This document shows, one piece after another, positions 5,434 to 23,344 of a DNA stretch of 47,410 bases (position 1 is its first letter; each line of letters starts with the position of its first letter). Below the pieces are notes generated by a model, which had not been told where the DNA came from, searched no databases, and was given only the letters and a program-made list of their open reading frames with translations. Where the stretch lies: the NCBI GenBank assembly GCA_947599875.1, contig CANQFV010000019.1, positions 1 through 47,410 of the forward strand. Reading direction: 5' to 3'. The position numbers and the translations under genes were made by a program. Source of the stretch: an uncultured Oscillospiraceae bacterium. Lineage in GTDB: Bacteria > Bacillota > Clostridia > Oscillospirales > Oscillospiraceae.

Positions 5434-5469
5434 CTGAGGGTTCTCGTAAGAGAACCCTCAGTTTTATTT
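5434..5469 (+). terminator. Rho-independent terminator (second copy of the GTAA hairpin)
   Basis: A 12-bp stem, CTGAGGGTTCTC/GAGAACCCTCAG with a GTAA loop, is followed by TTTTATTT. The same stem-loop lies inside the 28-bp inverted repeat at 5180-5239, so the two copies flank repeat B1. The T-run overlaps the end of the ABC permease gene on the other strand. Confidence 0.75.
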
Positions 5470-7893: not shown

Positions 7894-7894
7894 A

Positions 7895-8638
7895 TCACTC
7901 ACCCAAATAGTAGAGGTACACGTCCTCCAGGCTGAAGTGCCCCGGCACCACGCTCTCCCGCACCTCCTGGGCCACGCGCTCTATGAGCCGGTCGGGCCGA
8001 TCCATGCCTACCACGCGGCCTTTTTTCATCATGAAAATCTGGTCGGAGATGGACTCGATGTCGCTGACAATGTGGGTGGCCAGCAGGATGATCCGCCCCC
8101 GGGACAGGGAGGAGATGAAGCTGCGGATGCGGATGCGCTCCTTGGGGTCAAGCCCCGCCGTGGGTTCGTCGAGGATCACCACCTTGGGGTCGCCCAAAAG
8201 TGCCTGCGCCAAGAGTACCCGCTGCTTCATGCCGCCGGAGTAGCCGCCCAGCTTCTTGTGGCGCGCATCGGAGAGGTTCGTGACCTCCAGCAGCCTCTCG
8301 ATCTCCTCCCTGGCCTGCTTCTTGGGGATGGCCTTCAAATCGGCCATGTAGGAGAGGAAGGTCTGCGCCGTCATTTGTTCGTAGCAGCCCTGCTGCTGGG
8401 GCATGTAGCCCAGGACGCGGCGGAAGTCCCGGCCCAGCTTCAAAATGTCCGTCCCGTCAAAGAGGATCTGCCCCTCCGTCCGGGGGATGTTGTCCGTGAG
8501 CAGGTTCATCATGGTGGACTTCCCCGCGCCGTTGGCGCCTAAGATGCCGTAGATGCCCTCGGTGAAGGTGATGTTCACATGGTCAAGGGCCGTGAAATTG
8601 CCGTAACGCTTTGTCAGGTCAAGTAGTTCAAGCTTCAT
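7895..8638 (-). CDS. ABC transporter ATP-binding protein
   Basis: This 247-residue ATPase energises the permease encoded immediately downstream. Walker A is GANGAGKST (34-42), the Q-loop lies near residue 81, the signature is YSGGMKQR (133-140), and Walker B with the catalytic Glu is VVILDEPT (153-160). A His-switch follows in ATHIVSD. The sequence type is that of BcrA/SkfE-like exporters. The start at 8638 has a GGGGG ribosome site; the GTG-type start 12 bases upstream is less likely. It begins 13 bases after the lipoprotein stop codon and overlaps the permease start, so the three genes are one transcription unit. Confidence 0.95.
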   Translation of the reverse strand: MKLELLDLTKRYGNFTALDHVNITFTEGIYGILGANGAGKSTMMNLLTDNIPRTEGQILFDGTDILKLGRDFRRVLGYMPQQQGCYEQMTAQTFLSYMADLKAIPKKQAREEIERLLEVTNLSDARHKKLGGYSGGMKQRVLLAQALLGDPKVVILDEPTAGLDPKERIRIRSFISSLSRGRIILLATHIVSDIESISDQIFMMKKGRVVGMDRPDRLIERVAQEVRESVVPGHFSLEDVYLYYLGE

Positions 8639-8651
8639 AAGTACCCCCAAA

Positions 8652-10047: not shown

Positions 10048-11412
10048 TCACGTCCTCTCCCAGTCGGTGATCACCTTGATATCGCCCGTTTCAATGTCGG
10101 CGCGGCAGAGGATGTAGTCGTACTTCTTTTTCCCGCCCATAAAGGAATAGTTGTCCTGGCCGGTGGCGTCGCCGCCGATCACCGTCTCCGCCTCAGCCAC
10201 AAAGAACAGGCCGCCGTCGGAGCAGAAGACAGGCTCCACGTTCACAATGCCGTCAAACCGGTGGTAGACCGCCTGGAGCGGCAATTCGTATAAAAGCTGG
10301 CCGTCCAGGCTGTAGATATAGAACGTGTCGCCGCCCACCAGGTGCAGATAGTCGTAGCGCGACCCCTCCGCAAGCTCAAATCCCGGCAGGCTCCTGTCCT
10401 CGGGCACGGCGTTTAAAAGGCACATGTATTCGTCGGAAAAGATCGCCTTGCCGTAGGGGGTCTTCCCGTGGGTGTCCGCCAGCTTTTCGTATTCGCCGGA
10501 GCTGAGGTCGCACCGCCAGTAGTCCCCGCCGGAGAGGTAGAAGTAGATGGCCCCGTCCTTGATGTACCACTTCGTGACTGAGACGCCCGTCTGCGTCCAC
10601 TGGCCCACCGTACCGGCGTCCGGCGTCTCCCACACCTGCTTCACAAGGGGTTCGTCGCCGCTGTTCTTTTTGCCCTTCTTCTCCGCGGCGGCGGCATCAA
10701 AGGCGAAAAGCGTGTCCTTGTAGGTGCCGTCGGGCTGCATCACGTTCGTCATGAAGTAGACGGTGTCGCCGTCGGCCCACAGCGTGAATTTGTTGCCCAC
10801 GGGGATGGAGTCATAGAACTGGACGCTGCCCTTTTCGCCCTCGATCTCCTCTCCCCACAGAGCCTGGGCGCGTTTTTTCAGCTTGCCGCCCAGGGGGACG
10901 CGGTAAAGGACGCCGCTGTAGAAGAAGTAGACGTATCCCCGGTGCAGGATCGGGTCAACGTGGGTCGAGCTGCCGCTGGGCTCAAACTCCAGCTCCTGCA
11001 CCACCCGCTGGCCGGTGCCGTCCAGGGCCACGGAGTAGATGCGCTCGCCGTGATCCACGAGCTTGCCGCGCTCCTCCAGCAGGGTGCTGTTGGTGTAGTA
11101 GAGGCGCCCGCCCGTCTCCCACAGGACGCCGCCGTATATTTCGGCGTTGCAGGTGTCGTCATTGTGGGCACATTCGGGCTTGGTGCATAAAAGCGCGATT
11201 TGATAAGTCTCCTTGTCGATAAAGTAGGCGTGGGAGCCGCCGTACAGGATGTAGTAGCCGTCCTCCGTCTGGCACACCTTGTCGAGGCGGTAATAATCGG
11301 ACTGGTGCATGTTCTTCTGAAATTCGTCCGTTGATTTGATGATGCCGCTGCAGGCGGTGAGGGAGAGGGTCAGCGCCGCCGCAAGCGCGGCGGCCAGCAG
11401 CTTTTTCGCCAT
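10048..11412 (-). CDS. CxKPxCxH-family lipoprotein 2 (TCS1 target)
   Basis: This is a 454-residue lipoprotein with lipobox LTAC (Cys21) and a start at 11412 preceded by AGGAGG. The family marks are present: DEFQKNMHQS, CTKPECAHNDDTC, WADGDTVYFMTN, KWYIKDGAIYFYL and a C-terminal IETGDIKVITDW. It is longer than its paralogues because of an insertion with a Lys-rich stretch (AAAEKKGKKNSGDE) and a longer C-terminal third. It is the first gene after TCS1 and has a TCS1-type direct-repeat operator with a -10 box (11469-11500) about 57 bases upstream of its start. It should therefore be directly activated by that regulator. The ligand and role are unknown. Confidence 0.9.
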   Translation of the reverse strand: MAKKLLAAALAAALTLSLTACSGIIKSTDEFQKNMHQSDYYRLDKVCQTEDGYYILYGGSHAYFIDKETYQIALLCTKPECAHNDDTCNAEIYGGVLWETGGRLYYTNSTLLEERGKLVDHGERIYSVALDGTGQRVVQELEFEPSGSSTHVDPILHRGYVYFFYSGVLYRVPLGGKLKKRAQALWGEEIEGEKGSVQFYDSIPVGNKFTLWADGDTVYFMTNVMQPDGTYKDTLFAFDAAAAEKKGKKNSGDEPLVKQVWETPDAGTVGQWTQTGVSVTKWYIKDGAIYFYLSGGDYWRCDLSSGEYEKLADTHGKTPYGKAIFSDEYMCLLNAVPEDRSLPGFELAEGSRYDYLHLVGGDTFYIYSLDGQLLYELPLQAVYHRFDGIVNVEPVFCSDGGLFFVAEAETVIGGDATGQDNYSFMGGKKKYDYILCRADIETGDIKVITDWERT

Positions 11413-11468
11413 ATCGGGTATCCTCCTGAGTGAATGATCTTGCAAGCGGGTTTTCCGCATGCCTGATC

Positions 11469-11500
11469 ATTCTAAGGGGCGGTTTTAACGAAAACCTAAC
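11469..11500 (-). promoter_or_regulatory. TCS1-type direct-repeat operator and -10 box (lipoprotein 2)
   Basis: The minus strand reads GTTAGGTTTTCGTTAAAA (two GTTA half-sites 11 bp apart, complements at 11497-11500 and 11486-11489). After exactly 11 more bases comes TAGAAT (11469-11474). The half-sites occupy the place of the -35 box, as expected for activation by an OmpR/PhoB-type regulator. The same arrangement precedes the TCS1 regulator gene. Confidence 0.82.
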
Positions 11501-11505
11501 GATTT

Positions 11506-12729
11506 TCAAAAAAACCGCTGTACCAGCGAAAAAACGGCCGTGACGGCGGCGCCGCCGCCCTCCGGGTTCTCCAGTCTCAGGCTGCCCCCGTGCTTTTCAC
11601 ACAGCGTGTGGCAGATATACAGGCCCAGGCCGAAATGATACGTTTTTTCGTTCTGCTCCCCGCTGTAATAGGGCTTTGCGGCGGCTGTAAGCTCCTTGCT
11701 CTGAAAGCCGCGGCCGTCGTCGGCCACGCGGATCGTCAGCGTCTCGCCGTCGCTTGCCAGCTCCACGGCGATTTTTGACCTGGCGAACCGCAGCGCGTTG
11801 TCCAGCAGGTTTTCAAACACCTGCGTCACCGCCGCAGGGTCGATGTTCAGCGTGGCGGCTTCTATGTCGGAGGTGATTGTACAGGAAATGCCCTGCTTTT
11901 CACCCAGAAGCGTTGTGGTCTCCCGAAGGCCCGTGATGAGATCCCCCGTGGGGACGGTCTCCCGCTGGATGGGCAGGTCTGACAGCTTCTGCGCGGTGTT
12001 CATGCTGTCCACAAACTGCCTGAGACGTTCCACATGGGCGGACATGGTGTGGACGGTCTCAATGACCCTCTCCCGGGGAAGCTCCCCGGTGGGGAGGTAC
12101 TCGGAGAGTGTGTCCGTGTACCCCTTCAAGACCGCGATGGGGGTGCGCAGATCGTGGGTGTAGGCGTCGTTGAGCTGCTTTCGCTCCTCTATCATCCGGC
12201 TCAGGCGCAGATTGTTCTCGTCCAGGGCACAGCGCATCCTCTCAAAGGCCCCGCACAGCTTCGCCATCTCATCCCGGCCGGGGTAATTGAGGGAGAAGGC
12301 GAAATCCTTCTCCGCGATTTTTTCAGAGGCGTTTACAAGCATGGCCAGGGGCTTTTTCAGCTTGGTGAAATAGAGCAGCAGCACGGCTGTCAGCAGGCTC
12401 ACGGAATAGAGAAAAACCGGGGCGTACTGGATGACCCACCGGCAGATCCGGTATAGGCGCTCATCCCCCGGGGACATGCCGTCAATGTCCACCTTGTAGA
12501 AAAAGGTCTCGCCCCTCTCCCCCGTCACGGTCTCGTAGACGATGCCGCTGTCGCCGGGGGTCCTGTCCTGGATCATGATGTACTGCAGGTTGAGCTGAGA
12601 CATCTTGGCCTTGGCCGCGCTTGTCACCCTGCTTGACGCCAGGGACGCGGTGATCAGCGCCGCGGCGGCGAACAGGAAAATGGCCAGCCACAGCGGGATA
12701 CTGCGGTACCACGCCTTTATTTTACCCAT
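11506..12729 (-). CDS. TCS1 sensor histidine kinase
   Basis: This 407-residue membrane kinase has a membrane helix at about 11-32, an extracytoplasmic loop of about 70 residues, a second helix at about 102-121, a HAMP linker, a dimerisation domain with phospho-acceptor His192 (THDLRTP), and an ATPase domain with N-box NLLDNALRF, DDGRGF and GLGLYICHTLCEKHGG. It should phosphorylate the response regulator encoded just upstream. Its ATG lies inside the end of that gene (13-base overlap), so the two are translationally coupled. The sensor loop shows no known domain. It resembles the TCS2 kinase more closely than the TCS3 kinase. Confidence 0.95.
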   Translation of the reverse strand: MGKIKAWYRSIPLWLAIFLFAAAALITASLASSRVTSAAKAKMSQLNLQYIMIQDRTPGDSGIVYETVTGERGETFFYKVDIDGMSPGDERLYRICRWVIQYAPVFLYSVSLLTAVLLLYFTKLKKPLAMLVNASEKIAEKDFAFSLNYPGRDEMAKLCGAFERMRCALDENNLRLSRMIEERKQLNDAYTHDLRTPIAVLKGYTDTLSEYLPTGELPRERVIETVHTMSAHVERLRQFVDSMNTAQKLSDLPIQRETVPTGDLITGLRETTTLLGEKQGISCTITSDIEAATLNIDPAAVTQVFENLLDNALRFARSKIAVELASDGETLTIRVADDGRGFQSKELTAAAKPYYSGEQNEKTYHFGLGLYICHTLCEKHGGSLRLENPEGGGAAVTAVFSLVQRFF

Positions 12730-13394
12730 TTGTAGCCCACCCCCCAGACGGTCTGGATATACGGCTTGCACCCCGCGGCGGAGAGCTTGGCCCGCAGGCG
12801 GCTGATATGCTCCATCGCCGTGTTGGGGTCCGCGTCGCTGTCCATCTCCCATATGCGGTCGAAGATCCGGTCCTTGCTGAACAGCTGTCCCGGGTGCAGG
12901 GACAGAAGCTCTACGATCTCATACTCCTTGGGCGTCAGAGAGATGGCCTCGCCCCTGAAGCTGACATTCCGGGTGGTGTAGTCGATCACAAACCGGTCGT
13001 CCAGCAAAAGCCGGTGTGCCGTCTGGCCGCTCCGGTCCTCCCGGCGCAGGTGGGCGGCCACCCGCGCCCCCAATTCGCTGACGGAGAAGGGCTTGACGAT
13101 GTAATCGTCGCCGCCCGCGTCAAAGCCCTCCAGCTTGTCCCGGTCCCCGACCCTGGCGGTGAGGAACAGGATGGGGCAGGTGACGTGTTCCCGGATGCGG
13201 CGGCACACCTCCAGCCCGTCGATATCCGGCATGTTGATGTCCAGCAGGATGAGATCCGGCTGTTTTGCGGCCTTCTCGATCCCGGCAAGGCCGTTTTCCG
13301 CCAGGATCACCTTGTAGTCCTTCAGCTCAAAATACTGCTTGAGCATGGCGCCCATGTCCTTTTCATCGTCGATGATCAGCAGAGTTTTTCCCAT
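12717..13394 (-). CDS. TCS1 response regulator, OmpR/PhoB family
   Basis: The 225-residue regulator has a receiver domain (1-120; acidic pocket D9-D10, phospho-acceptor D52, T79, K101) and a C-terminal winged-helix DNA-binding domain ending in YIQTVWGVGYKWVK. The start at 13394 follows GGGAGGGG. It should bind 11-bp-period GTTA direct repeats; one such site lies in its own promoter (13415-13446) and one before the lipoprotein at 11412, which implies autoregulation. The predicted leader is very short, with the transcription start near the ribosome site. Confidence 0.95.
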   Translation of the reverse strand: MGKTLLIIDDEKDMGAMLKQYFELKDYKVILAENGLAGIEKAAKQPDLILLDINMPDIDGLEVCRRIREHVTCPILFLTARVGDRDKLEGFDAGGDDYIVKPFSVSELGARVAAHLRREDRSGQTAHRLLLDDRFVIDYTTRNVSFRGEAISLTPKEYEIVELLSLHPGQLFSKDRIFDRIWEMDSDADPNTAMEHISRLRAKLSAAGCKPYIQTVWGVGYKWVK

Positions 13395-13414
13395 GTGTCA
13401 CCCCTCCCGAAGAA

Positions 13415-13446
13415 AGTATACCAGACAATTTTAACGAAATCCTAAC
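13415..13446 (-). promoter_or_regulatory. TCS1-type direct-repeat operator and -10 box (TCS1 own promoter)
   Basis: The minus strand reads GTTAGGATTTCGTTAAAA (half-site complements at 13443-13446 and 13432-13435, 11 bp apart), then 11 bases, then TATACT (13415-13420). Seventeen of these eighteen operator bases match the site at 11469-11500, and the distance to the -10 is the same. No separate -35 box is present. Confidence 0.85.
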
Positions 13447-13519
13447 GGTTTCGAAATTTTCTCCGTGCGGCAGAGAACTTCCCGCTCCTGCCGCCTGGCG
13501 GCCCCTTTTTCCTGTCCCC

Positions 13520-14803
13520 TTATTGCCAGCTGTAGATCTCAGTGATCTGGCCGGTGTCTATATTCACGCGGCAGAGGACGTTGTTTTGCTCCTTTCCGCT
13601 GACGCCGTTTTTCTCTGACATACGGCCGGCGTCCATGTTGAAGTACAGGTTCTCCCGGTCGCAGAAGAGAAGGGTGAAGCCGTTGACTGTCCCCCGCCTC
13701 TCCGTCAGCGGCCCCAGGGACAGCTCCTTTAAAAGCGCGCCCTCCAGGTCGTAGACATAGACGGTGTCCCCGCCCTGGTGGAAGGGGGCGCCCACCATGA
13801 GCGTGCCGTCAAAGGGGTTCGATAGGGGACGGTCATTCAAAAGGCACAGGCGGTCGTCGGAGAAGACGGCGCTGCCGTAGAGGGTCTTATCCGTGGTGTC
13901 CGCCAGCTTCACCGTCTCGCCGGTGGTGAGATCGGACTTCCAGAAGTCCCCGCCGGAGAGGTAGAAGTAGATAAAGCCATTCGTGACGTACCACTGAGAT
14001 ACGGACACGCCGGTGGTCTCCCACTCCCCCACGGTCTCCTTACCCGGCGTCTCCCAGACCTGCTCCGCCTCGCCGCCGCTCAGGGGGCAGGAAAAGAGGG
14101 TGTCCCTCTGGGTCCCGTCCTGCCGGGTGACGTTGACCATGAAGTAGAGGGTGTCCCCGTCGGCCCAGAGGGTGTAATGGGGCTGGGCGGGGTCATAGGC
14201 CGCGTAGCCGCCGTCCGGGGTCCCGGCGGCGCTGTCCCGCCCGTAAATGAGCCGGGCGTCCCCCGGGTCGCCGCCCAGGGTGACGGCGTACAGGCTGCCG
14301 TTCAGGACGAAGTAGACCTCCCCCCGGTGGTAGATGGGCCTGTCGTAGGCGGCCTTTCCAAGGTCCATGACCTCCCGGCGCTCCGTGCCGCTCATGGTCT
14401 GGGAGAAGACGCGCTTTTCGCCGCCCCGCTCCGCCCGGACGTAGTAGAGCCGCGCCCCGTCCGTCCAAAGGCCCAGGACGTCCACAAGGGCGCCGCAGGT
14501 GTCGGGGTCAGAGTGGCCGCAGTCGGGCCTGGCGCACAGAACGGTGACTCTCCCCGTGGCCTTGTCCATGTAGTAGAGCCTGAATTTCAGTCCCGGCCCC
14601 AGGTCGCAGTTGAAATAGAACCCCTCCTGTGTCTCGCAAATGCCGTCCAGGTCGCCGCCCCGGGACTGGTGCATGTTCTTCTGAAATTCGTCGCTGACGG
14701 TCTGGGCGGCGGGGATGTCCAGGCCGCCCTTTTGGCAGGCGGCGAGGGTGAGGGGGAGCAGCGCCGCCAGGAGGGCGGCCAGGGGCCGTTTCGCTGTTTT
14801 CAT
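13520..14803 (-). CDS. CxKPxCxH-family lipoprotein 3 (third of the TCS2 operon)
   Basis: The 427-residue lipoprotein has lipobox LAAC (Cys23) and a start at 14803 with AAGGAG upstream. Family marks: DEFQKNMHQS, CARPDCGHSDPDTC (Lys replaced by Arg), WADGDTLYFMVN, QWYVTNGFIYFYL and a C-terminal IDTGQITEIYSW. It is the last of three tandem paralogues, 12 bases after the previous stop, with no promoter of its own visible. After it, a GC-rich hairpin (GCCGCCAGGCGGC) without a U-tract precedes the TCS1 promoter. A surface beta-propeller-like binding protein is inferred; the ligand is unknown. Confidence 0.9.
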   Translation of the reverse strand: MKTAKRPLAALLAALLPLTLAACQKGGLDIPAAQTVSDEFQKNMHQSRGGDLDGICETQEGFYFNCDLGPGLKFRLYYMDKATGRVTVLCARPDCGHSDPDTCGALVDVLGLWTDGARLYYVRAERGGEKRVFSQTMSGTERREVMDLGKAAYDRPIYHRGEVYFVLNGSLYAVTLGGDPGDARLIYGRDSAAGTPDGGYAAYDPAQPHYTLWADGDTLYFMVNVTRQDGTQRDTLFSCPLSGGEAEQVWETPGKETVGEWETTGVSVSQWYVTNGFIYFYLSGGDFWKSDLTTGETVKLADTTDKTLYGSAVFSDDRLCLLNDRPLSNPFDGTLMVGAPFHQGGDTVYVYDLEGALLKELSLGPLTERRGTVNGFTLLFCDRENLYFNMDAGRMSEKNGVSGKEQNNVLCRVNIDTGQITEIYSWQ

Positions 14804-14815
14804 GGGGTTTTCTCC

Positions 14816-16099
14816 TTACCGAAGCTTGTAAATTTGCGAAAGCTCAGCGGTCTCAAAATTGGCCCGCCACAGTGTGACAGAGCCGGTATTGCCCACCGGC
14901 ATCCCGTACTGGGTGGAATAGACCGTGGTGGTGGCCAGAAAGTACACGTCGGTGCTGTCGCACATGAGCATGTCGATGTCGATTTTGCCGTCCAGCGCGT
15001 CACGCAGCGGCTTTAGGGAGATCTCCCCTTTGAATGTCCCGTCCAGCCCGTAGAGGAAGATGCTGTCCCCGGGGACGCGATACCGGCCGCCCTCCGTGAC
15101 CTGGCCCTGGAAATCCGCGGGCAGCTGACCCAAAAGGGCCAGGTAGTCGTCGGAAAAGACGGCGCTGCCGTAGAGGGTCTTATCCGTGGTGTCCGCCAGC
15201 TTTTCATATTCGCCGGAGTTGAGGTCGCACCGCCAGTAGTCCCCGCCGGAGAGGTAGAAGTAGATATACCCATTCGTAACATACCACTGAGATACGGAAA
15301 CGCCGGTGGTCTGCCACGCGCCGACCTGGGCGGCGCCGGGGGTGACCCAGACCTCACGGACGTCCGAGCCGTCCAGGCCGCACCGGAAGAGTACGTCCTT
15401 GTATGTCCCGTCGGCGGTCTGGACATTTGCCATAAAGTAGAGGGTCTCGCCGTCTGCCCAGAGGGTGTAATGGATGGCGTTGGGGTTAAAATCGACCCTG
15501 CCGTCGGCGTAGGACTGGGACGAGCCGGCGCCCTCCGGCTTCCAGATCTCCTCCGCCGAGTCCTTCTCCCCGCCCAGCTTCACCCGGTAGAGGATGTCAT
15601 CGCTGACGTAGTAGATATAACCGCGGTGATAGATGGCCGTGTCGTAGGAGGACTGGGAGGCGGAAAACTCGTTGAATTTCAGCTCCTGAACCGTCTCCCG
15701 GCCCGTGGCGTCGGGCCTTACGGAACCCACTGTCCTGGGGTCGTTGCTGTTGCTGACATAGTACAGCCGCTCGCCGCCTGTCAAAAGATAGTTGGCATCT
15801 ATCATGGCGTTGCAGGTGTCGGGGTCAGAGTGGTCGCAGTCGGGCTTGGCGCACAGGACGGTCATCCTGCCCGTGTCCCTCTCCAGGTAGTAGAGCCTCC
15901 CATAGCCCACATAATAGCCCGTGTCCGTCTCCACAAAGGTGGGCACCCCCGTCCCCTCCGTCTGATGCAGGTTTTTCTGAAAATCCTCCCGCCCGGTCAT
16001 TGTCAGGGGGATGTCCAGACCGCTTTTCCGGCAGGCGGTGAGAGAGAACATGAGCAGAGCCGCCAAAAGCGCGGCAAGGGTTTTTCCCGTTGTTTTCAT
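14816..16099 (-). CDS. CxKPxCxH-family lipoprotein 4 (second of the TCS2 operon)
   Basis: The 427-residue lipoprotein has lipobox LTAC (Cys23). Family marks: DFQKNLHQT, FVETDTGYY, CAKPDCDHSDPDTC, WADGETLYFMAN, QWYVTNGYIYFYL and a final FETAELSQIYKL. It starts 4 bases after the stop of lipoprotein 5 and is therefore co-translated with it. A segment of about 40 residues (GGDYWRCDLNSGEYEKL and the following ADTTDKTLYGSAVFSDD) is nearly identical to the matching parts of lipoproteins 2 and 3, which points to recent duplication or gene conversion in the array. Confidence 0.9.
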   Translation of the reverse strand: MKTTGKTLAALLAALLMFSLTACRKSGLDIPLTMTGREDFQKNLHQTEGTGVPTFVETDTGYYVGYGRLYYLERDTGRMTVLCAKPDCDHSDPDTCNAMIDANYLLTGGERLYYVSNSNDPRTVGSVRPDATGRETVQELKFNEFSASQSSYDTAIYHRGYIYYVSDDILYRVKLGGEKDSAEEIWKPEGAGSSQSYADGRVDFNPNAIHYTLWADGETLYFMANVQTADGTYKDVLFRCGLDGSDVREVWVTPGAAQVGAWQTTGVSVSQWYVTNGYIYFYLSGGDYWRCDLNSGEYEKLADTTDKTLYGSAVFSDDYLALLGQLPADFQGQVTEGGRYRVPGDSIFLYGLDGTFKGEISLKPLRDALDGKIDIDMLMCDSTDVYFLATTTVYSTQYGMPVGNTGSVTLWRANFETAELSQIYKLR

Positions 16100-16103
16100 C
16101 CCG

Positions 16104-17417
16104 TCACTGTCCTTTCTTCAACGTGCAGATGACCTGGGCTTCGCCGGTCTCTATATTGGCGCGGCAGAGGTTCACGTCCCCCTGGTTGCCCTGCAATCCG
16201 CTGAGGCCGCCCCCTAAGCTGGAGGTACTCATGGACGTGGTGCGGAAGAAGACATCGCTGTCCGTGCAGAAGAGCAGGTCGATTTCTGCCATTGCGGCGG
16301 GGTCCTGGTACAGCCCCTCCAGGGGGATCTCCTTCACAAACGTCCCGTCCTTCCTGTAGATAAAGAGGGTGTTGCCGTAATAGCGGAAGATCCCGCCGGG
16401 CTCAGGCTCCGTAAAGCCGTAGAAGAAAACGGGGTAGTCGTTTAAGAGACAGATGTACTCATCCGAGAAGATGGCGCTGCCATAGGGCACCTTTTCGGTG
16501 GTGTCCGCCAGCCTTTCGGTCTTGCCCGTGGCAAGCTCCGTTTTCCAGAGGCCGTTCATGGCCAGGTAAAAGTAGATATACCCGTCCTCCACATACCACT
16601 GACTGACCGAGACGCCTGTCTCCTCCCACTCCCCCACGTCCTCCTTGTCCGGGGTGATCCAGACCATGCGGACATCGGAGCCGTCCAGGCCGCACCGGAA
16701 GAGCGCGTCCTTATACGTCCCGTCCTCCGTCTCCACGTTTGTCATAAAGTACAGCGTGTCCCCGTCGGCCCAGAGGGTGTAGCGGATGGGATTGGGGTTA
16801 TAATCCTCAATGTACATGCCCCCCGGCCCCTGGTGGGCCTGGGTGGAGCCGGCGTTCTCAGGCCTATAAACCTCCTGGGCGGAGTCCTTCTCCCCGCCCA
16901 GCTTCACCCGGTAGATGATGTCGTCGCTGATGTAGTAGAAATACCCCCGGTGGTAGATGCCCCGGTCGCTGGAGGAGTCGGAGGAGGAGAACTCGTTGCA
17001 TTTCAGGGATTGGACGGTCTTTCGCTCCGTGGCGTCCAGCTTTATGGCGTGGACAAGCTTGTTGGGCTTGCCGTTTTCATACTTGTTTGTCACGAAATAG
17101 AGGTTATCCCCGCCGGCGATCAGGTAGCCGTTGATGATGCCGTTGCAGACGTTCTCGTCCTGGTGGTCGCAGTCCGGCTTTGAGCAGACGATGGTGGTCT
17201 TGAAGGTGCCCTTCTCCATGTAGAAGAGCCAGCCGTAGGACATGTAATAGCCCGTGTCCGTCTCCACAAAGGTCGTCCTGTCCGCCTGGTGGAGATTTTT
17301 TTGAAAGTCCTGGCTGACGGTTTGGTTGGCGGGGATGTCCAGGCCGCCCTTTTGGCAGGCGGCGAGAGACAGCGCCAGCAGCGCCGCCAGGAGCGCGGCG
17401 ATAGGTCGTTTTGTCAT
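16104..17417 (-). CDS. CxKPxCxH-family lipoprotein 5 (first of the TCS2 operon)
   Basis: The 437-residue lipoprotein has lipobox LAAC (Cys21) and a start at 17417 preceded by AGGAGGAG. Family marks: DFQKNLHQA, FVETDTGYY, CSKPDCDHQDENVC, WADGDTLYFMTN, QWYVEDGYIYFYL and a C-terminal IETGEAQVI. It heads a three-gene operon of paralogues (5, 4, 3). It lies directly downstream of the TCS2 genes and has a TCS2-type operator and -10 box at 17472-17503. It is expected to be exported, lipid-anchored and induced by TCS2. Confidence 0.91.
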   Translation of the reverse strand: MTKRPIAALLAALLALSLAACQKGGLDIPANQTVSQDFQKNLHQADRTTFVETDTGYYMSYGWLFYMEKGTFKTTIVCSKPDCDHQDENVCNGIINGYLIAGGDNLYFVTNKYENGKPNKLVHAIKLDATERKTVQSLKCNEFSSSDSSSDRGIYHRGYFYYISDDIIYRVKLGGEKDSAQEVYRPENAGSTQAHQGPGGMYIEDYNPNPIRYTLWADGDTLYFMTNVETEDGTYKDALFRCGLDGSDVRMVWITPDKEDVGEWEETGVSVSQWYVEDGYIYFYLAMNGLWKTELATGKTERLADTTEKVPYGSAIFSDEYICLLNDYPVFFYGFTEPEPGGIFRYYGNTLFIYRKDGTFVKEIPLEGLYQDPAAMAEIDLLFCTDSDVFFRTTSMSTSSLGGGLSGLQGNQGDVNLCRANIETGEAQVICTLKKGQ

Positions 17418-17471
17418 GGTATGCTCCTCCTAAAAAATGATCGCGCAGGCGGATCCCCCGCCGGCACGACC

Positions 17472-17503
17472 ATTTTAAAGGCCGAGTATAACATTTTCGT
17501 AAC
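17472..17503 (-). promoter_or_regulatory. TCS2-type direct-repeat operator and -10 box (lipoprotein operon)
   Basis: The minus strand reads GTTACGAAAATGTTATACT (half-site complements at 17500-17503 and 17489-17492, 11 bp apart), then 11 bases after the second half-site, then TAAAAT (17472-17477). The 19-base block is identical to the one before the TCS2 regulator and differs from the TCS1 sites between and after the half-sites. Confidence 0.85.
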
Positions 17504-17522
17504 ATTCACAAAAATGTTGCAA

Positions 17523-18749
17523 TTACAGGGAGAACACGGCCGTGACGCAGGCCCCGCCGCCCGGGGCGTTGGCCAGGGTCAGGCTGCCGCCGTGCTTTTC
17601 GCACAGGGTGTGGCAGATGTAAAGGCCCAGGCCGAAGTGGTACGGCCCCTCCGTCTGCTCCCCGCTGAAATAGGGCCTGTCCGCGCCGGAAAGCTCCTTT
17701 GGCGAAAATCCCCGCCCGTCGTCGGTGATCCGGAGGGAGAAAACCTTCTCCCCGGCCTCAAGCTCCACCAAAATCCTTTCCCTGGCGAAGCGAACCGCGT
17801 TGCTCAGCAGGTTTTCGTAGACCTGAGTCACCGCCGAGGGGTCGATGTTCAGCGTCTGCGCCCCGATGCGCGGCTCGAGGGTGCAGGCAAGGCCCCTTTT
17901 CTCGCACAAAAATGCCGCCGTCTCCCGCATCGCGCCCACAAAATCGCCTGTTTCCACGGGCTGTCTCCGGACGGACAGATCCGCCAGCCTTTGCGCGGTG
18001 TTCATGCTGTCCACAAACTGCACAAGCCGGTCAATGTGCGTGGACATGGTGTCCACCGTCGCCGCCACCTTCTCCCGGGAGAACTGCCCGGTGGGGAGGA
18101 AGCGCCTCAGGATCCCCGCGTATCCCTTCAAAACGGCCAGGGGCGTGCGCAGATCGTGGGTGTAGGCGTCGTTGAGCTGCTTTCTCTCCCGGATCATCCT
18201 GTGCAGGCGCAGGTTGTTCTCATCCAGCGCGGAGCGCATCGTCTCAAACGCCCCGCAAAGCCTGGCCATCTCGTCGTGTCCGGAGTACTCCAGGGAGAAG
18301 TCAAAATCCCCCTCCGCGATTTTCTTGGAGGCGCCCAGCAGCAGCGCCAGGGGCTTTTTCAGCTTGGTGTGGTAAAAGAGAAGTGCCGCCCCCAGCAGCG
18401 TCAGGGTGTAGATGAAGAGCGAGGCGTACCGCAGAAGGAACTGGTAAAATCCGTACAGGCGGCGATCCCCGGCGGAGAACCGGTCGGGGCCAAGCACCTC
18501 CTGAAGGTGGACGCCGTCCACGATGTAATAATAGCGTTCTCTCCCCTGGTTCTCCTCCCGCGTGTCCTCAAGCTCCATAGGGACCGCGTATTGGATCTGT
18601 AATTGGATTTCCGCCTGATGGACGGCGAAGATGAGCTTGTTGGAGGCGAAGGACGCCAGGAGCAGCGCCGCGGACGCCAGGAGGAAAATGGCCAGCCACA
18701 GCGGGATGCTCCTGTACCAGGACTTCACGCGGTCTTTTATTTTACCCAT
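17523..18749 (-). CDS. TCS2 sensor histidine kinase
   Basis: The 408-residue membrane kinase has helices at about 16-36 and 107-126, an external loop of about 70 residues, HAMP, His198 in THDLRTP, N-box NLLSNAVRF, DDGRGF, and GLGLYICHTLCEKHGG. It shares long stretches with the TCS1 kinase (SIPLWLAIFL, the KLKKPLA HAMP start and the region around His), but the external loop differs, so the stimulus probably differs. It overlaps the regulator gene by 13 bases exactly as in TCS1 and TCS3. It pairs with the regulator at 18737-19414. Confidence 0.95.
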   Translation of the reverse strand: MGKIKDRVKSWYRSIPLWLAIFLLASAALLLASFASNKLIFAVHQAEIQLQIQYAVPMELEDTREENQGRERYYYIVDGVHLQEVLGPDRFSAGDRRLYGFYQFLLRYASLFIYTLTLLGAALLFYHTKLKKPLALLLGASKKIAEGDFDFSLEYSGHDEMARLCGAFETMRSALDENNLRLHRMIRERKQLNDAYTHDLRTPLAVLKGYAGILRRFLPTGQFSREKVAATVDTMSTHIDRLVQFVDSMNTAQRLADLSVRRQPVETGDFVGAMRETAAFLCEKRGLACTLEPRIGAQTLNIDPSAVTQVYENLLSNAVRFARERILVELEAGEKVFSLRITDDGRGFSPKELSGADRPYFSGEQTEGPYHFGLGLYICHTLCEKHGGSLTLANAPGGGACVTAVFSL

Positions 18750-19414
18750 TTGTAGCCCACCCCCCAGACGGTCTCGATATACGGCTTACACCCCGCGGCG
18801 GAGAGCTTGGCCCGCAGGCGGCTGACCTGCTCCCGGAGGGCCGTCTGCTCCGCGTCGCTGGCGATGTCCCAGATCTGCTCGATGATCCGGCTCCAGCCCA
18901 GCACCTGGCCGGGGTGGGTGGACAGAAGCTCCACGATCTCGTACTCCTTGGGCGTCAGGGAGATGACGGTGCCCGCGCAACTGACCTGCTTGGCGGTGTA
19001 GTCGATCATAAAGCTGTCGTCGAAGAAGAGGCGGTGCGGGGTCTGGGCGCTCCGATCCTCCCGGCGCAGGTGGGCCTCCACCCGCGCCCCCAGCTCGTCG
19101 ATGTCGAAGGGCTTGACGATGTAGTCGTCCCCGCCCACGGCGAAGCCCTCCAGCTTGTCCTGATTTTCCACGCGGGACGTGAGAAACAGGATGGGACAGG
19201 TGACGTGTTCCCGGATGCGGCGGCACACCTCCAGCCCGTCGATGTCCGGCATGTTGATGTCCAGCAGGATGAGATCCGGCTGTCTTCCCGCCTTCTCCAT
19301 CCCCGCAAGCCCGTTTTCCGCCAGCGTGACGCCGTAGCCCATAAGCTCAAAATACTCCCGGAGCATCCTGCCCATGTCCTTCTCGTCGTCTATGATCAAA
19401 ATCGTTTTTCGCAT
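18737..19414 (-). CDS. TCS2 response regulator, OmpR/PhoB family
   Basis: The 225-residue regulator has D9-D10, phospho-acceptor D52 (LLLDINMPD), T79 and a VKPF lysine, followed by a winged-helix effector ending YIETVWGVGYKWVK. The receiver domain is very like that of TCS1. The recognition part of the effector differs (EQTALREQVSRLRAK against NTAMEHISRLRAK), which fits the different operator sequence. GGGGGG lies before the start. An operator of the TCS2 type overlaps its own promoter (19436-19467), implying autoregulation. Confidence 0.95.
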   Translation of the reverse strand: MRKTILIIDDEKDMGRMLREYFELMGYGVTLAENGLAGMEKAGRQPDLILLDINMPDIDGLEVCRRIREHVTCPILFLTSRVENQDKLEGFAVGGDDYIVKPFDIDELGARVEAHLRREDRSAQTPHRLFFDDSFMIDYTAKQVSCAGTVISLTPKEYEIVELLSTHPGQVLGWSRIIEQIWDIASDAEQTALREQVSRLRAKLSAAGCKPYIETVWGVGYKWVK

Positions 19415-19435
19415 GTGTCATCCCCCCTGGCAGCC

Positions 19436-19467
19436 ATTGTACAGGACAAGTATAACATTTTCGTAAC
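19436..19467 (-). promoter_or_regulatory. TCS2-type direct-repeat operator and -10 box (TCS2 own promoter)
   Basis: The minus strand reads GTTACGAAAATGTTATACT (half-site complements at 19464-19467 and 19453-19456), 11 bases, then TACAAT (19436-19441). The -10 lies 22 bases before the start codon, as in the other two regulator promoters (20-22 bases). Confidence 0.87.
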
Positions 19468-19550
19468 GTCCCGGCATTTTTTCGCACGCGGGGTCATTCT
19501 CTCCGCGCCGGGCCGCCTATGTCCCATTTTATCCGGAGGGCCTGAGAAAA

Positions 19551-20843
19551 TCAATATTCCGCCCCGGCCACGATCTCCCTGTCGTCCTGCGTGGGCGGCT
19601 CCCGGTTTGCCGCGGGCCAGTCGGACAGCTCCCGGATCTCCCCGGTGGCGGTGTCGATGCGAAACAGCGACGAAACGGCGCTGAGATACCCGCCCCGGTA
19701 GCACAGCAGGTAGACAAGGTCCCCGTCCGCGAAGGCCGGGTCGCAGGAGGAGATGTCGCCGTAGGTCTCATAGATCGGGGCGAGGCTGACATCGCCCCCG
19801 CGCTCACCGTTCAGCCCGTAGACGGTGACGGCCCTGCCGGCGGCGGAGTAGAGGAACATCCTCTCATCCGTAAAGAGGGCCTGGCCGCCGGACACGCCGG
19901 CCAGCCTTTTTTCGCCGCCTGTTTTCAGATCCGCGTCCCAGAATCCCCCGTCGGCCAGATAGTAGAGATGCCCGCCGGTGATGGTGAAGCTGAATTTGCT
20001 GCCGGATGCGTAGGAGATGATCTCATCCCCGCGGGAGGTGATCCGGGAGGAGCGCCAAAGCTCCCGGGTCTCCCCCGCACTGTCGCCCAGAAGGTAGAGT
20101 ACGGCCTTGGAAAGCCCGTCTGCGTCCATATAGCGGCACATGACGTAGGCGCTGCCGCCGTCGGCCCAGAACTTCCAGTCCCACTCCAGCATTTGGCCGG
20201 TGTCCGGCTCCAAAAGCGTCACGTTGTCCCTGGGGTCCCCGCCCAGGCGGTTTTTGCAGACCCGGTTGTCCCGGAGAACGAAATAGATCTCCCCGTTCCA
20301 CAGCATGGGCTCATAATTCGCCCTATACCACCCCTGCATATCCTGGGGGGTCATAAGCGCCTGGACATCCCGGTGGTTCGACCCGTCCGGGTCCATAGCG
20401 CACAGGGTCAAAATACTGTCGTGCATGGCGTCCATGTTGGTGTACCAGAGCTTGCCGTCGTAGAAGGTGAGGAATTTCGTGTTGGCCCAGGCGTTGCAGG
20501 TCTCGTGGTTTTCGTGGCCGCACTCCGGTTTGCCGCACAGCAGGATCATCCGCCCGGTGTCGGCCTCCATGTAGTAAATGTACCCCTCGTTTTGCAGGTA
20601 GTACCCGCCGCCGGTCCTGCAGGCGGCGTTTAAGCGGAAGGGGTGGTTGACGCTCATCTCCTTCTGAAAGCCGCCGTCGTCGGTTCCGCCCCCGGCGGAG
20701 GGCGGGGACGGGTCGTCCTGCCGCGGGGGGTCAAGGGCCTGCGCCGGGGGTTCGACCGCCGGCCCGGAAGGCCCCTCCGGCCCGGCCTGACAGCCGGAGA
20801 GCAGAAGGACGGCAAAAAGGAGCGGGAGAAGGGCTTTTTTCAT
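19551..20843 (-). CDS. CxKPxCxH-family lipoprotein 6 (TCS3 target)
   Basis: The 430-residue lipoprotein has lipobox LSGC (Cys18), followed by a Pro/Gly/Asp-rich linker of about 50 residues that its paralogues lack. It is the most diverged member: FQKEM keeps only part of the FQKNMHQS mark, and the motif is CGKPECGHENHETC. WADGGSAYVM replaces WADGDTLYFM, and the C-terminus is IDTATGEIRELSDW. The start at 20843 has GGAGGG upstream. It follows the TCS3 genes and carries a TCS3-type operator (20931-20964). The function is unknown; a surface-exposed propeller-like protein is inferred. Confidence 0.9.
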   Translation of the reverse strand: MKKALLPLLFAVLLLSGCQAGPEGPSGPAVEPPAQALDPPRQDDPSPPSAGGGTDDGGFQKEMSVNHPFRLNAACRTGGGYYLQNEGYIYYMEADTGRMILLCGKPECGHENHETCNAWANTKFLTFYDGKLWYTNMDAMHDSILTLCAMDPDGSNHRDVQALMTPQDMQGWYRANYEPMLWNGEIYFVLRDNRVCKNRLGGDPRDNVTLLEPDTGQMLEWDWKFWADGGSAYVMCRYMDADGLSKAVLYLLGDSAGETRELWRSSRITSRGDEIISYASGSKFSFTITGGHLYYLADGGFWDADLKTGGEKRLAGVSGGQALFTDERMFLYSAAGRAVTVYGLNGERGGDVSLAPIYETYGDISSCDPAFADGDLVYLLCYRGGYLSAVSSLFRIDTATGEIRELSDWPAANREPPTQDDREIVAGAEY

Positions 20844-20930
20844 ATCGGGATCCCTCCAAAGGCGTGATCAATCAGATAAATTGGGGGCTGTCAAAAGGTC
20901 GTGGGCGCCGGGATCTCTCCCGACGCCCAC

Positions 20931-20964
20931 ATCTTATGACGCAATTCTCAAATTCCTCTCAAAT
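20931..20964 (-). promoter_or_regulatory. TCS3-type direct-repeat operator and -10 box (lipoprotein 6)
   Basis: The minus strand reads ATTTGAGA-n3-ATTTGAGA (complements at 20957-20964 and 20946-20953, 11-bp period), then 9 bases, then TAAGAT (20931-20936). The operator overlaps the stop codon and last codons of the TCS3 kinase gene. Confidence 0.82.
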
Positions 20965-22183
20965 CTTTTTGAATTTTTATGGTCACTCTCGCCCCGCCCT
21001 CGGGGGCGTTGTCCAATTTAAGCTCGCCCCCCAGCTTTTTTGTGAGAACGGAGCAGATGTACAGCCCCAGGCCGAAGTGGGTGCCGTCCCCGGCCCCCTC
21101 CCCCCGGTAGTAGGCGGAGGCGGCTCCGGCAAGGTCCCGGTCTGTAAAGCCGCTCCCGTCGTCCCGGACGGTTATCACCGCAAGATTCCCCTGGATCTCA
21201 AAGGACACGCGGATCTCTTCCCGGGCGTGGCGGGCGGCGTTGGAGAGGACGTTTTCATAGATCTGCGCCAGCGCCTCCCTGTCGGTGAAGATCGTAAGGC
21301 CCCCGGCGTCCGGCGGCGCCTCCACCGTGGCGGCGGGGTAGAGACACCGCGCCGTCTCCGCAAGCTCCGAGAGCATCTCCAGGGCGGGCACAGGCCCGAC
21401 GCCAGGCTCGTAATCCTCTAACTTTTGGATCCGCCCCATCGTACCGGCAAAGGAGGTGAGCCGCTGGATCTGGCCGGAGATCTCCCGCACCGAGTCTCGG
21501 ATATCCCCCAGCTCCTCCCGGCCCTCAAGCTCGGCCTCTATGATCTCCGCGTGTCCCCGCATGACGGTGAGGGGCGTGCGCAGGTCGTGGGCGAAGGCCG
21601 CGTTCAGGCGCTTGCGCTCCTCCACGGCGTCCCACATCTTTTGCTCGTTCCAGACAAGTGCCTTGCGCATCACCTCGAAGGAGCGGCACAGCCGCCCAAG
21701 CTCGTCCTGCCCCTCAAAGCCCACCCGGAAGTTCAGGTCGTTGCCGGCGATCTTCTCCACCGCCTCCGTCAGCGCCCGGTAGGGCCTTCTGATCTTCCAG
21801 CGGTAGAAGATGAGGGCAAACACGGCCAGGCAAACCGTGTACCACAGCAGGGCGGCTATCTCGTCCATGTGGGCGTAGAAGTCAAATTTCTTCCTGTCCG
21901 TCCCGTTAAGGGGCGTCAGCGCCGCCACATGTACCTCCCCCTCGCCGCCCACGATGACGATCTTCGCCTTCTCCTCCACCGTGGAGGACTCCGGCGTGTA
22001 GGGCGTGTAGCCCGTGCCCACGGTCAGCAGCTCATACTGGCCGACGATCTCTGCCATGTGGCGTCTGGCCGCGCTCACCGTGACCTTCGTCAGCGCCAGC
22101 GCCGTCAGAAGGCACCCGATCCCGCAGAGGATGAACGCCGCCGGGATGGGTATTTTGCGCAGTCCGTTTTTTATCCGATCCAT
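20948..22183 (-). CDS. TCS3 sensor histidine kinase
   Basis: The 411-residue membrane kinase has helices at about 12-33 and 110-127, an external loop of about 75 residues, HAMP, His199 in AHDLRTP, N-box NVLSNAARH, DDGSGF and GLGLYICSVLTKKLGG. It is clearly diverged from the TCS1 and TCS2 kinases (RRPYRALTEAV in place of KKPLAMLV at the HAMP). The ATG at 22183 overlaps the regulator gene by 13 bases. The last few codons double as part of the operator for lipoprotein 6. Confidence 0.95.
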   Translation of the reverse strand: MDRIKNGLRKIPIPAAFILCGIGCLLTALALTKVTVSAARRHMAEIVGQYELLTVGTGYTPYTPESSTVEEKAKIVIVGGEGEVHVAALTPLNGTDRKKFDFYAHMDEIAALLWYTVCLAVFALIFYRWKIRRPYRALTEAVEKIAGNDLNFRVGFEGQDELGRLCRSFEVMRKALVWNEQKMWDAVEERKRLNAAFAHDLRTPLTVMRGHAEIIEAELEGREELGDIRDSVREISGQIQRLTSFAGTMGRIQKLEDYEPGVGPVPALEMLSELAETARCLYPAATVEAPPDAGGLTIFTDREALAQIYENVLSNAARHAREEIRVSFEIQGNLAVITVRDDGSGFTDRDLAGAASAYYRGEGAGDGTHFGLGLYICSVLTKKLGGELKLDNAPEGGARVTIKIQKDLRGI

Positions 22184-22842
22184 TTGTAACCGATCCCCCA
22201 TACCGTCTCGATACAGTTTTCGCACCCGGCCTTGGCAAAGGTGAGGCGTATAGTGCGGATATGCTCCATGATGACGCTGTCGTCCCCGTCGCCGTCCAGG
22301 CCCCAGACCCGGTCGTAGATCTTCGCCCGGTGAAAGACCTGCCCACGGTTCAGGGACAGGAGCTTGATGATGTCAAAGTCCTTTCGGTTGAAGCTGAGCC
22401 TCTCGCCGCGGACTGTGACCTCCCGGGCGGAGTAATCGACGGTGATGTCGCCGAACACCTTTCTCTGGATGTCCCGGCTCCTCCGGTCACGGCGCAGATG
22501 CGCCTCGATCCGCGCCCCCAGCTCCGCCAGGGAGAAGGGCTTGACGATGTAATCGTCCCCGCCGGAGGCGAAGCTCTCCACCTTGTCCTCGTCCCCGTCC
22601 CGGGCGGTGAGGAAGAGGATGGGGCAGGTGACGCGGTCCCGGATGGCCCGGCACACCTCGATCCCGTCCATCCGGGGCATGTTGATGTCCAGCAGAATGA
22701 GATCCGGCAGGGTCTTCGCCTTCTCCACGGCCTCGGGGCCGTCACAGGCGCAGCTCACCTCGTACCCCCGGCGCTCCAGGAAACTCCGCAGCATCGCCAC
22801 GACCTTCGGCTCGTCGTCCGCCACCAATACGCGATACGCCAC
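22171..22842 (-). CDS. TCS3 response regulator, OmpR/PhoB family
   Basis: The 223-residue regulator has D9-D10, phospho-acceptor D52, LTARDG, VKPF and a winged-helix domain ending CIETVWGIGYKWIG. The GTG start at 22842 is chosen because GGGAGGT lies 7 bases upstream and it matches the N-termini of the family; upstream codons give an atypical leader. The recognition helix region (SVIMEHIRTIRLTFAKAG) differs from those of TCS1 and TCS2, consistent with the distinct ATTTGAGA half-site found at 22862-22895 and 20931-20964. Confidence 0.95.
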   Translation of the reverse strand: MAYRVLVADDEPKVVAMLRSFLERRGYEVSCACDGPEAVEKAKTLPDLILLDINMPRMDGIEVCRAIRDRVTCPILFLTARDGDEDKVESFASGGDDYIVKPFSLAELGARIEAHLRRDRRSRDIQRKVFGDITVDYSAREVTVRGERLSFNRKDFDIIKLLSLNRGQVFHRAKIYDRVWGLDGDGDDSVIMEHIRTIRLTFAKAGCENCIETVWGIGYKWIG

Positions 22843-22861
22843 GATACCCACCTCCCAGCTT

Positions 22862-22895
22862 ATCATACCATACAAATCTCAAATTTTTCTCAAAT
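22862..22895 (-). promoter_or_regulatory. TCS3-type direct-repeat operator and -10 box (TCS3 own promoter)
   Basis: The minus strand reads ATTTGAGA-n3-ATTTGAGA (complements at 22888-22895 and 22877-22884), 9 bases, then TATGAT (22862-22867). The repeat, period and distance to the -10 match the site before lipoprotein 6. Confidence 0.82.
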
Positions 22896-23104
22896 TCCCC
22901 GATTTTCAAGAAAAATTCACATTGCCCCGCGGAAAAACCCATCCGGGTTAGGAAAGCGCCGCGCCCCACCCCACCCCGAAAAAGGCGGGACGGAGGGGGG
23001 GGGGGAGGTCAAGCGTCACCTTAAAGCCGGTGTGACATGCGGAAGGCCGGCGTCCCTGTTGAACCGCCTCCTCAAAAATCGATAACTGAGCGCCCCCATT
23101 GCCT

Positions 23105-23290
23105 CACGGGGACGGTTTTTGTGGGACACCGGAGCGTAAGCGGAGGTGGTTCACAAGAACCGTCCCCGCTGTCCCACCTCCTCAAAAGACGGGAAGTCCC
23201 TTCGTAAAAGGCGGGACTGAGGGACGGTTTTTTTGTACCACCGCAGCGAAGCGGAGGTGTGACAAAAGAACCGTCCCTCTGTAACGCCGG
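23105..23290 (+). repeat. Family A double hairpin (copies A3 and A4)
   Basis: CGGGGACGG/CCGTCCCCG (about 23105-23167) and GAGGGACGG/CCGTCCCTC (about 23218-23278) are joined by a linker starting CTGTCCCACCTCC. The second hairpin is followed by CTGTAACGCCGGG. The composite is close to 28760-28935. From 22896 to 23104 I see no other feature apart from a G-run. Confidence 0.83.
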
Positions 23291-23344
23291 GTGAAGGCCA
23301 CCGAACAACGAAACAATCCTCCGCCCCGCATCCCCCAATCCAAA

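Follow-up and report, generated by a model that had tools for sequence, protein, structure and literature searches.

Three paralogous two-component systems of an Oscillospiraceae bacterium with lipoprotein promoters that overlap terminator-like hairpins

Organization of the locus

The window analysed here is a stretch of 47,410 nucleotides (contig CANQFV010000019.1, assembly GCA_947599875.1) from an uncultured Oscillospiraceae bacterium, probably a gut bacterium. On its minus strand it contains three two-component systems (TCS1-TCS3), each with a response regulator (RR) gene and a sensor histidine kinase (HK) gene. From high to low coordinate, the order is RR3-HK3 and one lipoprotein gene, RR2-HK2 and three lipoprotein genes, and RR1-HK1, two lipoprotein genes and the genes for an ATPase and a probable permease of an ATP-binding cassette (ABC) transporter. 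Direct-repeat operators precede each regulator gene and the lipoprotein gene behind each kinase. The -10 box and the likely start site of the lipoprotein promoter are located within the 5' arm of a terminator-like hairpin that ends the regulator-kinase operon, a feature that was missed in an earlier interpretation of this DNA (the sequence-only reading) and is new here. The features of the three cassettes, with the evidence in brackets, are as follows.

22862..22895, minus strand: TCS3 operator and -10 box (TATGAT) before RR3 (sequence match)
22171..22842, minus strand: RR3, OmpR-family response regulator of TCS3, helix SVIMEHIRTIR (Pfam Response_reg and Trans_reg_C)
20948..22183, minus strand: HK3, HAMP/HisKA/HATPase_c sensor kinase (Pfam; start taken from the reading frame)
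20931..20964, minus strand: TCS3 operator and -10 box (TAAGAT) before the lipoprotein gene (sequence match)
20890..20933, minus strand: TCS3 hairpin, a 15-16-bp stem starting inside the -10 box, then CTTTTGAC; weaker, terminator-like (fold and junction count)
19551..20843, minus strand: lipoprotein of TCS3 (A3 profile; CxxPxCxH motif)
19436..19467, minus strand: TCS2 operator and -10 box (TACAAT) before RR2 (sequence match)
18737..19414, minus strand: RR2, OmpR-family response regulator, helix TALREQVSRLR (Pfam)
17523..18749, minus strand: HK2 sensor kinase (Pfam)
17472..17503, minus strand: TCS2 operator and -10 box (TAAAAT) before the lipoprotein gene (sequence match)
17432..17477, minus strand: TCS2 hairpin, about 19 pairs and a T-run, with the 5' arm starting inside the -10 box; promoter-in-terminator (fold and family covariation)
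16104..17417, minus strand: first lipoprotein of the TCS2 target operon (profile match)
13415..13446, minus strand: TCS1 operator and -10 box (TATACT) before RR1 (sequence match)
12717..13394, minus strand: RR1, OmpR-family response regulator, helix NTAMEHISRLR (Pfam)
11506..12729, minus strand: HK1 sensor kinase (Pfam; start taken from the reading frame)
11469..11500, minus strand: TCS1 operator and -10 box (TAGAAT) before the lipoprotein gene (sequence match)
11431..11472, minus strand: TCS1 imperfect inverted repeat over the -10 box and start, without a U-tract; decayed hairpin (fold and junction count)
10048..11412, minus strand: first lipoprotein of the TCS1 target operon (profile match)

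Six operators share a single frame

The six operators proposed in the sequence-only reading are all present exactly as written, and the gaps given there are correct: the inner GTTA is located 11 bases from the -10 box in all four TCS1 and TCS2 sites, and ATTTGAGA is located 9 bases from it in both TCS3 sites. However, the two spacing classes are an artefact of where the half-site was cut. Counted from the -10 box, the two half-sites begin at -26 and -15 in every one of the six operators, and the separate 9-base class of TCS3 disappears. In this frame, the half-sites are GTTAGG/GTTAAA in type 1, GTTACG/GTTATA in type 2, and TTGAGA/TTGAGA in type 3, arranged head-to-tail about 11 bp apart in the place of a -35 element. 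Consistent with the claim that there is no -35 box, none of the six sites was recognised as a -35/-10 promoter in a sigma-70 scan.

In a scan of the whole genome (2,730,395 bases in 89 contigs), the check that had been proposed for these motifs, the pattern GTTA-N7-GTTA-N11-TANNNT gave exactly four matches, all of which are the TCS1 and TCS2 sites, while the reversed pattern gave one. The pattern TTGANA-N5-TTGANA-N9-TANNNT gave exactly two matches, both in TCS3, and none when reversed. With one mismatch, GTTASGWWWWYGTTA had one additional site, on contig 23, which contains ATAAAT instead of TANNNT at the -10 distance, and ATTTGAGA-N3-ATTTGAGA with up to two mismatches had three additional sites, two of them overlapping, which did not look related when two of the three loci were inspected visually. 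The genome-wide counts rule out chance repeats, and the extra near-matches lack the full layout. Each operator type is found solely before its own regulator gene and the next lipoprotein gene, as had been claimed.

The further claim, that the 11-bp repeat replaces the -35 element in the mode of PhoB and VanR, holds for the frame, which equals that of the PhoB site nearest to the -10 box at pstS, and activation and autoregulation would be its natural reading by analogy. At pstS of E. coli K-12, a GTCA half-site is located 15 bp before TATTTT, taken as the -10 box by the scan, and the spacing of the two distal GTCA sites is 11 bp. The pstS promoter differs in that TACATA is found 11 bp upstream of the proximal site and the next GTCA is 22 bp away. 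Since the -15 frame is shared, the six operators have a PhoB-like geometry, and the conventional OmpR/PhoB reading is largely right.

Both sites recur in relatives

Relatives were collected in a scan with a kinase alignment, from which the best 80 of 336 confirmed loci were used, and in searches of genomes from the family (300), the genus (34), and the order (394), plus fetched stretches. Including the genome under study, matches were identified in at least 7 of the 300 family genomes, 15 of the 34 genus genomes, and at least 10 of the 394 order genomes, where at most six (family) and four (order) candidates per genome were scored among the matches listed. Within the genus, the cassettes are patchy. 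The working set consisted of 87 RR-HK pairs with different regulator sequences, and a lipoprotein gene adjoins 36 of them; the sample is mostly metagenome assemblies picked by kinase similarity, and the lipoprotein loci are mostly from Oscillospiraceae or Clostridia assemblies labelled Lapin (rabbit, going by the name).

Among the 36 pairs with a neighbouring lipoprotein gene, operator-like repeats in the -15 frame were found before the regulator gene in 35 and before the lipoprotein gene in 35. Of the regulator operators, the one called in L018 is in the wrong register, and that of L143, not called at first, was identified in a later scan. Both sites thus recur in relatives, whereas a lack of conservation at orthologous loci had been named as one of the outcomes that would speak against the sequence-only reading. 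Operators of types 1-4 are found both before the regulator and behind the kinase in relatives. Those of type 4 contain TTTAGA/TTTAGA before the regulator gene and TTGAGA/TGCAGA before the lipoprotein gene in seven cassettes (L029-L034 and L158).

The pairs without a recognised lipoprotein mostly contain TTGATA/TTGAAA-like half-sites. An open reading frame (ORF) was located behind the hairpin at 11 of the 12 such junctions that were read, and six of these ORFs were tested: five encode ABC ATPases, and the sixth is without a Pfam match. Among the pairs with a lipoprotein, the distance from the -10 box to the start of the recognised gene is 481 nt in L036 and 385 nt in L082. Type-1 cassettes that closely resemble the one in the window are present in genomes of another family (L011-L013 and L016, and also G557 and G584), which suggests lateral transfer of the cassette together with its operators.

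A terminator-like hairpin overlaps the lipoprotein promoter

The hairpin was first spotted by eye and then counted, with the start site (+1) assumed to be the seventh base after the -10 box. Of 35 lipoprotein leaders, 34 have a stem of at least 10 pairs that begins upstream of the likely +1, compared to none of 36 regulator leaders. At the junctions with a called operator, a hairpin with a U-tract over the -10 box was found in 33 of 34 lipoprotein junctions and in 23 of 28 others (56/62 in total), compared to 31/1700 and 13/1400 in shuffles of the two sets, respectively, and 0/69 at regulator promoters. The sole miss in the lipoprotein family is TCS1 of the window itself. This count leaves out 25 of the 87 pairs, which have no usable downstream operator, and because the sample was picked by kinase similarity, 56/62 is not a rate for two-component systems at large. 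With stricter stems in 1.29 Mb of sequence (the window and L011-L090), the hairpin accompanied 24 of 29 operators at kinase ends, but 0/72 other operator-like matches and 0/40 in reversed DNA.

In an alignment of 25 leaders, double changes were observed in 7 of 17 pairs, a number reached in 8 of 500 shuffles, and the swaps are U-A/U-G/C-G and G-C/A-U, with G-U intermediates. Paired cells amounted to 82.1%, versus 27.5-41.5% on sliding. Column 10 contains G-C in eight leaders, A-U in five, and G-U in three, and is unpaired in nine, while column 11 contains A-U in 21, G-U in three, and G-C in one. Both columns precede the likely +1 in every row, and pairing there would therefore matter only in RNA from further upstream. 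With the assumed +1, all 56 hairpins lose at least three pairs; the median loss is nine in the lipoprotein-family hairpins and nine in the others, 5 of 23 of which lose the whole 5' arm. No Rfam family matched positions 8000-24000 of the window, which speaks against a known RNA element, and searches of open PMC papers, which lack most of the subscription literature, gave no description of a promoter-in-terminator layout for two-component systems. In L040, L041, and L061, the likely ribosome-binding site of the ABC gene falls within the 3' arm, and much of the spacer to the start codon consists of the U-tract.

Several observations weigh against a role of the hairpin as a terminator that is escaped from within. 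In the window, only the TCS2 hairpin fully fits an intrinsic terminator (GC-rich, with a U-tract directly behind it), while the U-tract is weak in TCS3 and missing in TCS1, and none of the three hairpins appeared in the output of a general scan for terminators. The junctions were made non-redundant on the regulator sequence alone, and several are near copies of each other (L058/L065/L166, L014/L015, L018/L019, and L011-L013/L016). One of the five covariation measures, the number of further pair types, was not above that in shuffles (15 versus 15.2), and columns 7-10 are unpaired in 9-14 of the 25 leaders. If the +1 is placed two bases earlier, the median loss falls to seven pairs, and half of the pairs are lost in just 9/33 and 12/23 hairpins of the two sets. 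Stable apical stems often remain after an internal start, and the lipoprotein RNA may therefore still be partly terminated. Furthermore, the fourth cassette type has a terminator before the operator at 8/8 junctions with a called operator, as judged by eye, and the overlap is therefore not obligatory.

The remaining stems also suit an alternative, in which the hairpin works on the lipoprotein mRNA itself, as a 5'-terminal stabilising stem-loop or as a leader attenuator with conditional termination, and the overlap with the end of the upstream operon is incidental. In the 35 leaders, the mean folding energy is -16.4 kcal/mol after truncation versus -27.3 kcal/mol in full, and in L011-L013 and L016 the U-tract is located just a few bases behind the remaining stem. 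We nevertheless consider this alternative unlikely, although it is the strongest one. The pairing in columns 10-11, which is present in read-through RNA alone, has been kept and partly compensated, no other terminator could be seen by eye in the gap between HK2 and the lipoprotein gene, the Rfam search gave no match, and the entire 5' arm precedes the +1 in 5/23 junctions without a recognised lipoprotein.

Operator types match the recognition helices at the level of clades

To compare the recognition helices with the half-sites, operators scoring at least 10.5 were kept and lower ones were dropped before counting, and the residue-position pairs were selected after inspection of the sequences. 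We take the residue numbers (194, 196, 200, and 201) to follow PhoB numbering. At the regulator promoters, R or H at residue 200 occurs with G at half-site position 3 (50/50) and S with T (51/52). At residue 196, M occurs with G/A at position 5 (60/60), A with T/A (26/26), and R with C/T (6/8), while F, T, and V are represented by 2, 4, and 2 half-sites only. At residue 194, T or A occurs with G at position 1 (32/32) and V with T (68/70). The corresponding numbers at the downstream promoters are 40/40 and 32/36 for residue 200, 52/52, 14/14, and 8/8 for residue 196, and 29/30 and 46/46 for residue 194. Residue 201 does not discriminate at position 1 (R with 34 G and 46 T). In the dropped rows, some operators go with S200 and yet disagree with the rule, namely TTGAGA/TGCAGA before the lipoprotein gene of seven type-4 cassettes and the regulator operators of L017 and L020, which have an inner TTGAGA.

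In a tree of the receiver domains, residues 194 and 200 and their half-site positions in the regulator promoters each change once, and residue 196 provides just two supported independent pairs, with an agreement of 1.7 of 2 on average. Since the tree allows a single switch for residues 194 and 200, the operator type appears to follow the recognition helix as a clade-level match rather than through many independent events. As proof of coevolution, a helix-operator code is weakened, with main switches of about one evolutionary event each and pairs chosen post hoc.

A set not included in these counts consists of a cassette on contig 40 of the same genome and ten relatives, which have K196, R200, and V194. 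A regulator operator was called in 10 of the 11, and all 20 half-sites are TTGAC[TC], with T, G, and C at positions 1, 3, and 5. A basic residue at 196 thus seems to go with a pyrimidine in two lineages, apart from the two exceptions among the eight R196 half-sites. The contig 40 cassette (L186) is a fourth, distant RR-HK-lipoprotein cassette with the operator TTGACT-N5-TTGACT and the helix RVIKEHIRKIR, and its terminator is located ahead of the target operator. In nine further regulators with a PhoB-like helix (RTVDVHVHRLR), no such operator was found.

Separation of the three circuits

On the suggested insulation between the circuits, the sequences point both ways. More than one RR-HK pair of types 1-4 was seen in ten genomes (23 pairs in all, typed manually), and in none of these does a type occur twice (P = 0.011 if types were assigned at random). 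However, with half-sites entered by hand, the lipoprotein operator was nearest to the operator of its own regulator in just 11 of 17 tests, with two ties, although this was the case for all three in the window. The other four pairings favour another regulator and thus weigh against separate circuits; all are type 4 beside type 3, in four genomes that contain both. The type-4 lipoprotein operator resembles type 3, and cross-regulation is possible where the two coexist.

That all three regulators usefully bind all six sites, as close paralogues would, is in our view rather improbable, somewhat more so than a role of the hairpin in the lipoprotein mRNA. RR1 and RR2 are 75% identical (RR3 and RR2 48%), only 2 of 12 half-site positions differ between the type 1 and type 2 operators of this genome, and the type-4 lipoprotein operators look like type-3 sites. 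Yet the chief difference between types 1 and 2, a purine versus a pyrimidine at position 5, is kept in their downstream operators and matches M196 versus R196, the type 3 operator is 6 of 12 positions away, and no type is doubled in the ten genomes. The likely docking helices of HK1/RR1 and HK2/RR2 carry different charges (SEY versus RRF in the kinases and AMLKQ versus RMLRE in the regulators), which could separate phosphotransfer.

Comparison with known systems

According to the accessible text of PMC4405338, VanR and VanRB bind their own promoters, while VanRG does not control its own. The VanRS-type circuits are similar to those in the window in that they have OmpR/PhoB-family regulators, with VanR and VanRB as a precedent for autoregulation, and the vanG target promoter also has repeats and no conserved -35 (PMC4405338). 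In contrast, the regulators in the window are below the VanR family cut-offs, and their targets are lipoproteins and an ABC transporter. The site of RR_1586 in C. difficile, DRTTAAGNWWW in two copies, is likewise an 11-bp direct repeat with a TTA-containing half-site, supported there by electrophoretic mobility shift assays; it differs in its broad predicted regulon and in repression in reporter assays, and the main text of that source does not contain the word terminator (PMC6222199).

In the leader of gene e of phage T4, as described in the accessible text of PMC3014915, an inhibitory hairpin is carried by the longer read-through RNA, and its 5' part is missing from transcripts that begin at the proximal promoter. 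The T4 hairpin blocks translation, whereas the hairpin in the window looks like an intrinsic terminator and its promoter is probably activated by a regulator. In the VtrB circuit of Vibrio, a terminator that separates an OmpR-type regulator gene from the operon upstream also sets the coupling, but there leaky termination feeds the regulator gene, and the accessible text mentions no promoter-terminator overlap (PMC10971746).

A model for the three circuits

The model starts from the observed sites, with their frame, genome-wide uniqueness and conservation, and from the hairpin, its overlap with the promoter and its covarying base pairs, and it predicts binding, activation, feedback, termination, and escape. 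We think it probable, with some reservation, that each of the three sensor circuits drives its own promoter and a lipoprotein promoter built into the terminator hairpin of the sensor operon. Each of the three paralogous OmpR/PhoB-family systems would thus drive two promoters, one in front of its regulator gene and one in front of the lipoprotein operon next to it. Once phosphorylated, the regulator is predicted to bind the head-to-tail half-sites at -26 and -15 and to substitute for the missing -35, and by activating its own promoter it would generate positive feedback. Operator classes that differ at positions tracking the recognition helices would keep the circuits mostly separate. The 5' arm of this hairpin starts within the lipoprotein -10 box or directly after it and would extend past the likely start site. 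Read-through RNA from the sensor genes, which would carry the whole hairpin, is predicted to stop there, while RNA begun at the lipoprotein promoter would lack the base of the 5' arm and escape termination. The target genes would then rely on their own activated promoter, and the sensor operon would be kept separate. In some related ABC-transporter modules, where the ribosome-binding site appears to be part of the 3' arm and all of the 5' arm can precede the +1, only self-initiated RNA would be freely translated. The inverted repeat spans the -10 box and the start, where repressors act, but that it is a DNA operator of an unrelated repressor rather than an RNA hairpin is most improbable given the G-U pairs and compensatory changes in the stem, the variation of the stem sequences between lineages, and the U-tract that usually follows.

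We are evenly divided on whether this is a general gate in two-component modules of Firmicutes, in which the 5' arm of the sensor-operon terminator is the core promoter of the target operon, only RNAs begun inside it escape or, in some ABC-transporter modules, have a free ribosome-binding site, and paralogous circuits diverge by matched changes in helix and half-site. If so, one short sequence would serve as operator-proximal promoter, terminator, and leader, a compact and testable way to end a sensor operon and start a target operon, with examples that extend from Oscillospiraceae to Paenibacillus. A single genus has five operator classes, each with its regulator sequence, and provides a natural panel for how duplicated response regulators separate their DNA targets.

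Lipoproteins, kinases, and other genes in the window

The target operons of TCS2 and TCS1 contain the following additional genes.

14816-16099 and 13520-14803, minus strand: further lipoproteins of the TCS2 target operon (spaced within 16 bp)
8652-9875, minus strand: second lipoprotein of the TCS1 target operon, start provisional (profile match)
7895..8650, minus strand: ABC transporter ATPase, last part of the TCS1 target operon (PF00005)
5464..7902, minus strand: probable ABC permease, 812 aa (position and hydrophobic sequence, judged by eye)

No operator was found between the three lipoprotein genes of TCS2, and the probable permease has no Pfam match. A related RR-HK pair in L084 is followed by an ABC ATPase that shares 47% identity with the TCS1 ATPase over 232 residues, and the transporter retained in TCS1 suggests that the lipoprotein cassettes may have grown out of sensor-ABC transporter modules.

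The lipoproteins share the motif C-x2-P-x-C-x-H and one further cysteine, and the family is represented by six full copies in the window, with another five weak matches in the rest of the genome. Where tested, no curated family scored above its cut-off, and the family is uncurated. A solved structure or named family was sought, with just weak matches to uncharacterised, kelch-like, or repeat families, and a beta-propeller fold is a guess. A search for phage relatives of the lipoprotein at 16104-17417 gave no match. In L014, L015, L021, L022, and L034, one cassette operator is followed by tandem arrays of 7-9 lipoprotein matches, some of them partial.

All three regulators consist of a receiver and a winged-helix C-terminal domain (PF00072 and PF00486). 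RR1 is below the NCBIfam cut-offs for the PhoB (177.5 of 296.2 bits) and VanR_ACDEGLN (177.6 of 350) subfamilies, and RR2 and RR3 are likewise below those for VanR and PhoB. HK1-3 each carry HAMP, HisKA, and HATPase_c domains in Pfam. Intramembrane-sensing kinases of the BceS type are defined as having no HAMP domain and no sizeable extracellular segment. This type was rejected for HK1-3, which have HAMP domains and about 60-75 residues between two hydrophobic stretches, as judged by eye. Finally, similar peptides from spurious ORFs (for example, EKIPLAAQVSSPQTGRTARQ) recur at about 300-1300, 23070-23700, 28570-29420, 40640-40770, and 46360-47100 of the window, which suggests a repeated intergenic element.

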